From positions 1 through 33,432 of the forward strand of contig CALGYB010000158.1 of assembly GCA_937935075.1 (NCBI GenBank): a stretch of DNA of 33,432 nucleotides, written 5' to 3'. Below the pieces are notes generated by a model. It was not told the origin of the DNA, ran no database searches, and saw only the letters and a list, made by a program, of their open reading frames with translations. This DNA is from an uncultured Roseiflexus sp. (GTDB lineage: Bacteria > Chloroflexota > Chloroflexia > Chloroflexales > Roseiflexaceae). Below are positions 1 to 33,432 of this stretch, piece after piece. How positions within the stretch are numbered: position 1 is the first letter of the stretch; each line of letters opens with the position of its first letter. Position numbers and translations under genes: made by a program.

Positions 1-339
1 GCGTATCAACCGCCACGTGGACCTTGCCGCCCCCCCTTTCCCCCCCCTGCGGGGGGGGCGATGGCATGGTGCGCGCGTCAACGATCGCCGCGCACGGCGG
101 TGCGCTGAGCCGGTCGAAGCGCGCAGGCGCGCGCCCCCCCCTTTCCCCCCCCTGCGGGGGGGGCAGGGGGGCGCGCACAGATCATGGACGAGCGCGGAGC
201 GCTGAGCCGGTCGAAGCGACGAAGGCCCACTCCTCGCTTCGACCGGCTCAGCGCTCCGCGTCGCTCACATCGCTTGGATAGGATTTACGTGTCATACTGA
301 AATCATACCACGTTTATCTCTGAAGTGCATAACAGGCTC
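1..339 (-). mobile_element. Degenerate IS5-type element, 5' half of transposase interrupted by a GC-homopolymer block
   Basis: Read on the minus strand, 178-192 encodes LVHDL and 1-27 encodes GKVHVAVDT. Both are typical of IS5-family DDE transposases (N-terminal helical part, then the KVHVAVDT strand of the catalytic core). Between them, at 28-177, the expected 50-60 residues are replaced by C-runs and G-runs around short GC palindromes. The outer end is at 339, where the minus strand reads GAGCCTGTTATGCACTTC; almost the same sequence begins the element at 32962, so it is probably the terminal inverted repeat. The element runs off the left edge of the window. No intact transposase is present here. 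The end falls inside the P-loop gene at 303-915, which it truncates. Confidence 0.72.
193..260. repeat. 27-bp perfect inverted repeat (REP-like palindrome)
   Basis: Arms at 193-219 and 234-260 are perfect reverse complements with a 14-nt spacer. The core is GCTGAGCCGGTCGAAGC, a family that recurs at about 106-121, 26295-26310, 26371-26387, 31229-31246, 33082-33098 and 33399-33415. It lies inside the decayed IS element. The family looks like a dispersed extragenic palindrome. Confidence 0.85.
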
Positions 340-21332: not shown

Positions 21333-22421
21333 ATGAGTGCATTAGAACACGCCATCGAATTGCGCGCCGTCAGTAAGTGGTTTCAGCGCGACACGCCTGC
21401 CGTTGACCATGTATCGTTGCAGGCGCCGCGCGGCGCGCTGCTGGCGCTGCTCGGACCAAGCGGGTGCGGCAAGACCACCACCCTCCGCCTGATCGCTGGT
21501 CTCGAAACGCCAGACACCGGCGAGATCGTGCTGGCAGGCGAGCGAGTCGCAGGCGGCGGCGCGTGGATTCCGCCAGAGCGGCGGCGCGTAGGGATGGTCT
21601 TTCAGGATTATGCGCTGTTTCCCCACCTGACGGTGCGTGAGAATGTGGCATTTGGTCTCAATGGACGTTCCACGCGGGAGCGCGTGGCGCGTGTGAACGA
21701 ACTGCTGGGGCTGACAGGTCTTGCCGATCTGGCCGATCGGTATCCGCATCAACTATCGGGCGGGCAGCAGCAGCGCGTGGCGCTGGCGCGCGCGCTTGCG
21801 CCCGATCCGCAGGTCATTCTGCTCGACGAGCCGTTCTCGAACCTCGACGCCGTGCTGCGCAAGGCGACGCGCGAAGAAATGCGGCGCATTCTGCGGCAAT
21901 CGGGCGCCACTGCGGTCTTCGTGACGCACGATCAGGAAGAGGCGTTCAGCATCGCCGACATTGTTGCGGTCATGCGCGAGGGCGTCATTGAGCAGATTGG
22001 CGCACCGCACGAGATCTACCTGCGTCCAGCAACCCGCGCTGTCGCCACGTTTGTCGGCGATGCGAACTTCGTTCCGGCGCGCGCCTCCGGCCGCTGCGCC
22101 GAATGTGTGCTCGGCAGGGTGCCGCTTGTCACTCCGCGCGATGGAGCAGTGGAGGTGATGGTGCGCCCCGAAGCGCTCGATCTTTGCCCGGACGCCGCCG
22201 GTTGCGGGCTGATCGAAGAGATTGTCTTCTTCGGGCACGACCAGTTGATCGGCATTCGCATGTGCGATGGAACGCTCATTCAGGCGCGCACCGGTCCGCG
22301 AGTCGATATCGCACCTGGCGCGCGGGTCACTGTCCGGGTGCAGGGCGAGGCGGTGGCGTTTCCATGTGCCGAGAACCGAGAACTGAGAACCGAGAATCGA
22401 GAACTGAGAACCAGCGGTTAG
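21333..22421 (+). CDS. Orphan ABC transporter ATP-binding protein (PotA/FbpC type)
   Basis: This 362-residue ATPase has Walker [10 protein letters not shown] (41-49), Q-loop [18 protein letters not shown], signature [15 protein letters not shown], Walker [12 protein letters not shown], the switch region FVTHDQEEA and a C-terminal TOBE-like part ([10 protein letters not shown]). No permease or binding protein adjoins it, so it may serve transport genes elsewhere or share the permeases at 16444-18124. A TTG at 21294 is in frame but lies in the -35 box, so ATG 21333 is the likely start; no Shine-Dalgarno site precedes it. The last residues, [14 protein letters not shown], derive from a heptamer repeat (22371-22412). 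Confidence 0.9.
22371..22412 (+). repeat. Heptamer tandem repeat (GAGAACY)6 inside the 3' end of the ABC gene
   Basis: Six consecutive 7-bp units (GAGAACC, GAGAACT, GAGAACC, GAGAATC, GAGAACT, GAGAACC) are in frame with the upstream gene. Three inverted units of the same family lie at 29827-29847, just before argD. Confidence 0.9.
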
Positions 22422-22482: not shown

Positions 22483-22580
22483 GGCGCGCGGGCGGGGCGC
22501 CCGTGGACGGGTCACAGACCCGCCCCGACGTTGGCGCGCGGGCGGGGCGCCGGCGGGCGGGCCACCGACCCGCCCCTACG
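22483..22580. repeat. Two tandem copies of a GC-rich dispersed repeat
   Basis: Each copy has a GGCGCGCGGGCGGGGCGCC part followed by a GGGTCacaGACCCGCCCC-type palindrome; copies start at about 22483 and 22533. Inverted copies of the same sequence occupy 29667-29745. This fills most of the gap between the ABC gene and the esterase gene. Confidence 0.85.
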
Positions 22581-32961: not shown

Positions 32962-33432
32962 GAGCCTGTTATGTACTTTCGAGCATAACGGTAATGAACC
33001 GCTTCAGCCACGTGGACCTTGCCGCCCCCCGCATGCGGGGGGGGGCAGGGGGGGCAGGGGGGGCGCCGCGCGCGGCGGTGCGCTGAGCCGGTCGACGCGC
33101 GCCGGCGCGCGCCCCCCCCTTTCCCCCCCTGCGGGGGGGCAGGGGGGGCGCGCGCAGATCATGGACGAGCGTTGCAACGACCCCGGCCTTCAGCCAGCGC
33201 TGGGTTTGCTGATAGACGGTGTACCACGGCGGCGGAGCGTTGGGCATCATGCGCCAGGGCGCTCCCGTGCGATGCGCTGAGCCTGCCGAAGCGCGGACGA
33301 TGCAATCGCCCCCCCTTCCCCCCCCTGCGGGGGGGGGCGCAGCGCGTGGTCGCGCTGCGGGGCGTCTTCGGTCATGAAGGTCAGGGAGGGAGCGCGGCGC
33401 CTGAGCCGGTCGAAGCGACGAAGGCCCGCTCC
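32962..33432 (-). mobile_element. Degenerate IS5-type element with GC-homopolymer block
   Basis: The left end, GAGCCTGTTATGTACTTTCG at 32962, matches the end at 321-339. On the minus strand ATG 33250 or 33247 opens an IS5-type transposase N-terminus, MPNAPPPWYTVYQQTQRWLK, continuing AGVVATLVHDLR. The frame then enters G/C runs (33025-33154) in place of the next 50 or so residues. GKVHVA is still encoded at 33006-33023 in another frame, and the sequence passes at once into the terminal repeat, so the catalytic 3' half is missing. Two further GC blocks and REP-like palindromes lie upstream (33300-33432). The element leaves the window on the right. It cannot make a functional transposase. Confidence 0.72.
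33037..33063 (+). other. G-quadruplex-capable G-tract cluster
   Basis: Three uninterrupted G-runs of 9, 7 and 7 bases are separated only by CA. The nine-base run can supply two G3 blocks, so at least four G3 runs are available on the plus strand. Similar but shorter clusters are at 50-58, 155-170 and 33132-33148. Confidence 0.6.

Follow-up and report, generated by a model that had tools for sequence, protein, structure and literature searches.

Degenerate IS5-type element copies carrying internal GC hairpins in an uncultured Roseiflexus genome

The window, i.e. the whole stretch of DNA that was analysed (the entire contig C158, 33,432 bp, of the 4.85-Mb, 220-contig draft genome of a hot-spring bacterium), begins and ends within copies of one IS5-family element. 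Elsewhere in the genome the element recurs many times with the same ends and the same target, its GC hairpins were found only inside it, its copies have derived junctions in common, and hairpin-free relatives occur in other genera of the order. We find it fairly probable that these copies make up a degenerate, mostly non-autonomous family, in which the hairpins would have spread by template switching and the copies would have been moved in trans. Among named organisms, Roseiflexus MAGs come nearest for one protein of the window, with 91-92% identity.

The two contig-end copies and their family

The features of the two copies in the window are as follows (unstranded where no strand is given by the feature).

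1-339, minus strand: left element copy, with the transposase-start (5') end at 339, truncated at 1 by the contig end and native after GKVHVA (from the end motif at 323-339 and alignment to other copies)
323-339, minus strand: 5' terminal motif GAGCCTGTTATGCACTT of the left copy, with outer flank TTG instead of the usual TA
30-58, unstranded: GC hairpin of the left copy, fusing the left flank of site D to the right flank of site E (GKVHVA side)
134-171, unstranded: GC hairpin at site C (past LVHDL), left copy
102-121, 199-218 and 235-254, unstranded: CTTCGAC-type repeats within the left copy
32962-33432, minus strand: right element copy, of the internally deleted type, with the 3' end at 32962 and cut by the contig end at 33432 (from the end motif, the flank CCCTA and alignment to other copies)
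32962-32978, plus strand: 3' terminal motif GAGCCTGTTATGTACTT of the right copy
33004-33010, unstranded: shared 3' deletion junction, GTCCACGTGGC^TGAAGCGG in transposase sense, right copy; present in 37 copies
33025-33064, unstranded: GC hairpin with GCATGC centre and the right flank of site E, right copy
33112-33148, unstranded: GC hairpin at site C (past LVHDL), right copy
33309-33338, unstranded: GC hairpin at site A, followed in transposase sense by the converted tract CGATTGCATCGT, right copy
33080-33099, 33274-33293 and 33398-33417, unstranded: CTTCGAC-type repeats within the right copy

The first-pass annotation described two IS5-type remnants holding a GC block between the same two junctions of the transposase. 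The transposase pieces are there, each with a 17-bp end (323-339 and 32962-32978), but both copies are cut by the contig ends and are not natural remnants. The native frame does run up to LVHDL and resume at GKVHVA in both copies; after GKVHVA, however, the left copy continues natively (VDT...) while the right one skips some 400 bp and goes straight on with the 3' end. Nor is the left block single: native transposase DNA and a CTTCGAC-type repeat separate two hairpins there, and in the right copy a third hairpin lies upstream. Taken alone, the transposase piece of the window copies shows weak IS5/DUF4096 similarity (20 bits, under the curated cut-off).

Over positions 1-141 the window is identical to the 141 bp at one end of contig C131, hence the left copy probably runs on into that contig. 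Probably the two contigs adjoin each other or else have a collapsed repeat in common, and the exact 141-bp overlap is taken to reflect an assembly k-mer.

The end motif GAGCCTGTTATGNACTT had 132 matches in the genome with at most two mismatches, against 2 for the reversed-pattern control. Copies were collected place by place from the end-motif matches listed (100 of the 132), and instead of the two places first noted they occupy at least 80 distinct insertion sites. Of the 80 recovered, 19 hold complete copies (254-1163 bp) and 61 hold copies with one end unreached or unrecognised, mostly where the contig stops; as many contigs, that of the window included, end inside a copy, the family explains part of the fragmentation of the draft genome. 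The interior of long contigs also holds several copies, three of them in the 91-kb contig C124. These and the many further copies speak against both objections foreseen in the first-pass annotation, namely a lack of other copies and an assembly artefact. Further, one copy (C56:811-1560) abuts a different IS5-type transposase gene. The viral contigs searched for the same element gave no match.

All 19 complete copies carry the 17-bp inverted ends GAGCCTGTTATG(C/T)ACTT on both sides. The left flank reads YTA (CTA or TTA) in 46 of 52 cases and the right flank TAR (TAG or TAA) in 45 of 47, i.e. a short target duplication at a YTAR-like site, as is typical of the IS5 family. Mixed flank pairs (TTA/TAG and CTA/TAA) rule out a 4-bp YTAR duplication and leave TA as the duplicated part. 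For two copies the matching place in the sister genome G005 lacks the element, one of them reading ...CCCCTAACCC.... The ungapped identity between copies has a median of 96% over the 5' 100 bp and 92% over the 3' 75 bp, and this divergence of several per cent among copy ends gives no indication of recent activity.

The native 3' half of the transposase matched PF01609 with 56.7 bits (cut-off 23), as expected for an IS5-type DDE transposase, and NF033580 with 87 bits; the cut-off of 110 for the latter applies to the whole protein, so that a fragment would be expected to stay under it. No intact transposase was found in the assembled genome by PF13340, PF01609 or protein search, and the gene is broken in all assembled copies. 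Short-repeat matches aside, the element is not present in five other genomes of the genus. Relatives were found within the same order: the 865-bp copy in G032 is identical at both 17-bp ends, contains stop codons and lacks a GC hairpin, and G026 has hairpin-free 859-bp copies with TA flanks, ends starting with GAGCCTGTTATG and open frames, one of 268 aa from the first ATG, whose product is an IS5-family transposase (NCBIfam 185.8 bits, cut-off 110). These relatives have the same inner ends, and the one in G026 is intact. Plasmid-borne relatives also carry an IS5-family annotation, one of them as ISY523a.

GC hairpins and shared junctions inside the element

The GC hairpins are near-perfect inverted repeats of the form C7-TTT-C7 / G7-AAA-G7; one example, GCCCCCCCTTTCCCCCCCCGCATGCGGGGGGGAAAGGGGGGGC, folds as single-stranded DNA with -24.9 kcal/mol (z -5.6). 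They are present in 47 of the 53 copies that have at least 250 bp of interior, and four native sites of the transposase gene are occupied: A within the SLR-E stretch, C past LVHDL, D past the DxRT motif and E immediately before GKVHVA. The GC-homopolymer blocks reported at one position are thus real hairpins, but there are several of them, at up to four transposase sites.

The C7T3C7 17-mer had 110 matches in the genome (100 listed) and none in 19 relatives, and C6T3C5 was absent from the five genomes of the genus in which it was sought. The core centred on GCATGC occurs at 28 sites. Every checked place with either sequence falls within copies of this IS5 family, hence we rejected a genome-wide spread of the GC block. 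The same confinement, along with the four native sites, speaks against the idea that the block targets one transposase position. Sister genomes do have related palindromes with a GCATGC centre outside the IS, G004 at 39 sites, and for this reason the first hairpin may derive from a class of GC palindromes found across the genus.

The hairpin centre depends on the site, being GCATGC in 20 of 26 E-E hairpins and another centre in 16 of 17 A-A hairpins. Run lengths differ among copies, and the exact lengths as assembled may be wrong. This variation, together with the many copies at contig ends (both window copies among them) and the contig overlap of exactly 141 bp, could be taken as a sign that the hairpins are an assembly artefact of high-GC, repetitive reads. 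We regard this as very improbable, as 19 complete copies have differing flanks on both sides, several lie within long contigs, both centre type and junctions follow the site, and comparable palindromes are found in other assemblies of the genus, even if exact run lengths may still err.

Two further arrangements were seen. One copy (C4:1062-1567) contains about three head-to-tail repeats of the unit that spans hairpins D to E. Another palindrome, GAGACGTTGC(A/G)ATG(C/A)AACGTCTC, lies inside the IS in two genera, namely at two loci on C104 of this genome and one on C46 of G032.

One 3' deletion, by which the catalytic core is lost, is found in 37 copies, while 13 have the native 3' half and 30 do not cover the region; of the two window copies, the right one has the deletion and the left is native there. 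At all 20 occupied A sites the tract CGATTGCATCGT stands to the right of the hairpin, and it is the exact reverse complement of the DNA to the left of hairpin D. Copies with an unoccupied A site, as well as the outgroup copy of G032, read the native GGATTGCGC(T/C)GGATCGT. The A-site tract is just what a single template switch into D would leave behind, the altered sequence being the complement of a nearby inverted arm.

Where hairpins are fused, their flanks are mostly joined in native order, as by deletion between hairpins, and a few joins are duplications or inversions; these counts are taken qualitatively, as the junction classifier uses simple flank signatures and some A/D assignments are ambiguous, e.g. 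the A_L / inverted A_L class. The shared junctions indicate common descent of the copies. The suggestion that the block was acquired once and multiplied with the element hence holds for the multiplication, as seen from the 3' deletion (n = 37), the A tract (20/20) and the site-specific centres, but not for a single block at a single position. A non-autonomous IS5-type family of many copies, also suggested at first, agrees with the number of sites and the derived junctions held in common.

Possible routes of hairpin spread

We suggest that the ancestor would have been a single IS5-type insertion sequence of about 860 bp with a DUF4096 + DDE transposase, the ends described above and a TA duplication within YTAR. 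A GC hairpin would have entered the transposase gene of a progenitor, and template switching by DNA polymerase between inverted sequences may then have carried hairpin sequence to sites A, C, D and E. Deletion, duplication or inversion between hairpins would have produced the copies of 254-1163 bp, with the 3' deletion taking out the catalytic core in addition. Derivatives with both ends retained would have reached many sites, and the most likely agent would be a transposase acting in trans from a full-length relative that is lost, or missing from the assembly. We infer the mechanism and the order of events, and likewise the movement in trans, the latter because the same deletion is found at many sites.

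Template switching between hairpins best explains how hairpins spread within the element. The conversion at site A is alone diagnostic for it, and sites C, D and E fit other routes too. In a rival explanation the hairpin would be an independent mobile palindrome, REP-like and moved for instance by a Y1/RAYT transposase, and GC-rich places in the IS would have received it several times. The palindromes outside the IS in sister genomes would fit this, as would two Y1-transposase genes in the genome itself and the further short repeats (CTTCGAC type, 24-bp units) that likewise lie inside the IS. We nevertheless consider it unlikely: the checked hairpins of the genome are all within the IS, the repeats next to the RAYT-like gene differ from the GC hairpins, and the A-site tract requires copying out of site D rather than a new insertion. 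With two genes found and no match between the hairpins and the repeats flanking the RAYT-like one, Y1/RAYT was set aside as the hairpin mover.

Alternatively, slippage and template switching might have produced the hairpins in situ out of native GC-rich quasi-palindromes of the gene, such as GCCGCAAGGGC at site E, with no incoming palindrome. C or G runs or small stem-loops do exist at native sites, site E reading the native CCGCAAGGGC in C124, but four sites would hardly come to the same C7TTTC7 pattern independently and related palindromes are present elsewhere in the genus, so that we hold this route to be quite improbable.

Building on template switching from an incoming hairpin, we speculate, and this only tentatively, that the hairpin might act as a second-order parasite of the IS. 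It would be copied within the element by inverted template switching and would remodel it into non-autonomous forms that keep their ends, and both would spread together. The at least 80 related copies, along with the hairpin-free outgroups, form a natural series that allows palindrome-driven rearrangement in a mobile element to be followed stepwise and that suggests a possible route from an insertion sequence to non-autonomous miniature forms.

Comparison with known systems and other repeats

Within the IS5 family we compared the 859-bp element of G026, an ISY523a-annotated element of Leptolyngbya NIES-3755 and a Paraburkholderia IS5. The family studied here resembles them in its DUF4096 + DDE transposase, its length of about 860 bp and its TA flanks, and it shares ends of the GAG(C/G)(C/G)TGTTATG type with the G026 and Leptolyngbya elements. 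It differs in that the transposase is broken in all copies assembled here and in that GC hairpins and short repeats lie within.

MITEs are miniature, non-autonomous IS derivatives (review PMC10969869). Like them, the present family has retained both ends, lost coding sequence, reached many copies and has a single shared deletion; the ends match those of G026 and G032 while the core is deleted in 37 copies. It is larger than MITEs, very variable in size and carries hairpins inside, and its movement in trans is assumed from the deletion. Judged by its sequence, the element appears to be a degenerate, non-autonomous (MITE-like) IS5 family, an unusual form of a well-known kind of element.

REP/RAYT repeats (PMC2817692, PMC3733652) are likewise short GC-rich palindromes of high copy number, but the hairpins described here are confined to one IS family and the RAYT-like gene has no matching repeats nearby; at the places checked in the genome we found no dispersed extragenic palindromes linked to a RAYT gene. 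Bacteria are known to undergo template switching at quasipalindromes (PMC7202029), and as at site A, such mutation turns the sequence beside an inverted repeat into the complement of the other arm (PMC7202029, PMC8794818). Unlike in those cases, some 200 bp or more of the same element here separate donor from recipient, and the product has spread along with the element.

CTTCGAC-type repeats (GCGCTGAGCCGGTCGAAGCG and its complement) lie within the transposase gene also in copies on C124, C131, C67 and C162 (L187, L240, L262 and L247) and in L192-like copies. Relative to the G032 copy the inserts measure 24, 48 or 72 bp in 12 of 16 cases and, as the unit is 24 bp, they keep the reading frame. 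A literature search by the repeat sequence found no paper.

A related palindrome such as CTTCGCCCCCCGCATGCGGGGGGTTGGGG is often found as a group of 2-4 in G002 and G004. Neighbours among these palindromes (about 29 bp) that lie within 75 bp of each other form 17 pairs, every one spaced 60-63 bp (13 at 61), and the stretches of about 32 bp that separate them differ in sequence; 23 further sites have one core, and single cores occur in G005 too. The groups (L201, L209, L303-L307, L317 and L320-L322, at many intergenic places) look like small dispersed CRISPR arrays, with a 29-bp repeat and a 32-bp spacer, in intergenic palindromes, and possibly stem from off-site spacer integration by a type I-E system. 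Five spacer cores from these arrays had no exact match in the viral contigs.

The RAYT-like Y1 transposase gene (C114:14701-15039) is preceded by tandem repeats of the GGAGGTGACCGTCACC type, unrelated to the GC hairpins. The window itself also contains a short tandem repeat CCGAGAA at 22369-22412 and two copies of a 50-bp GC-rich unit at 22483-22580.
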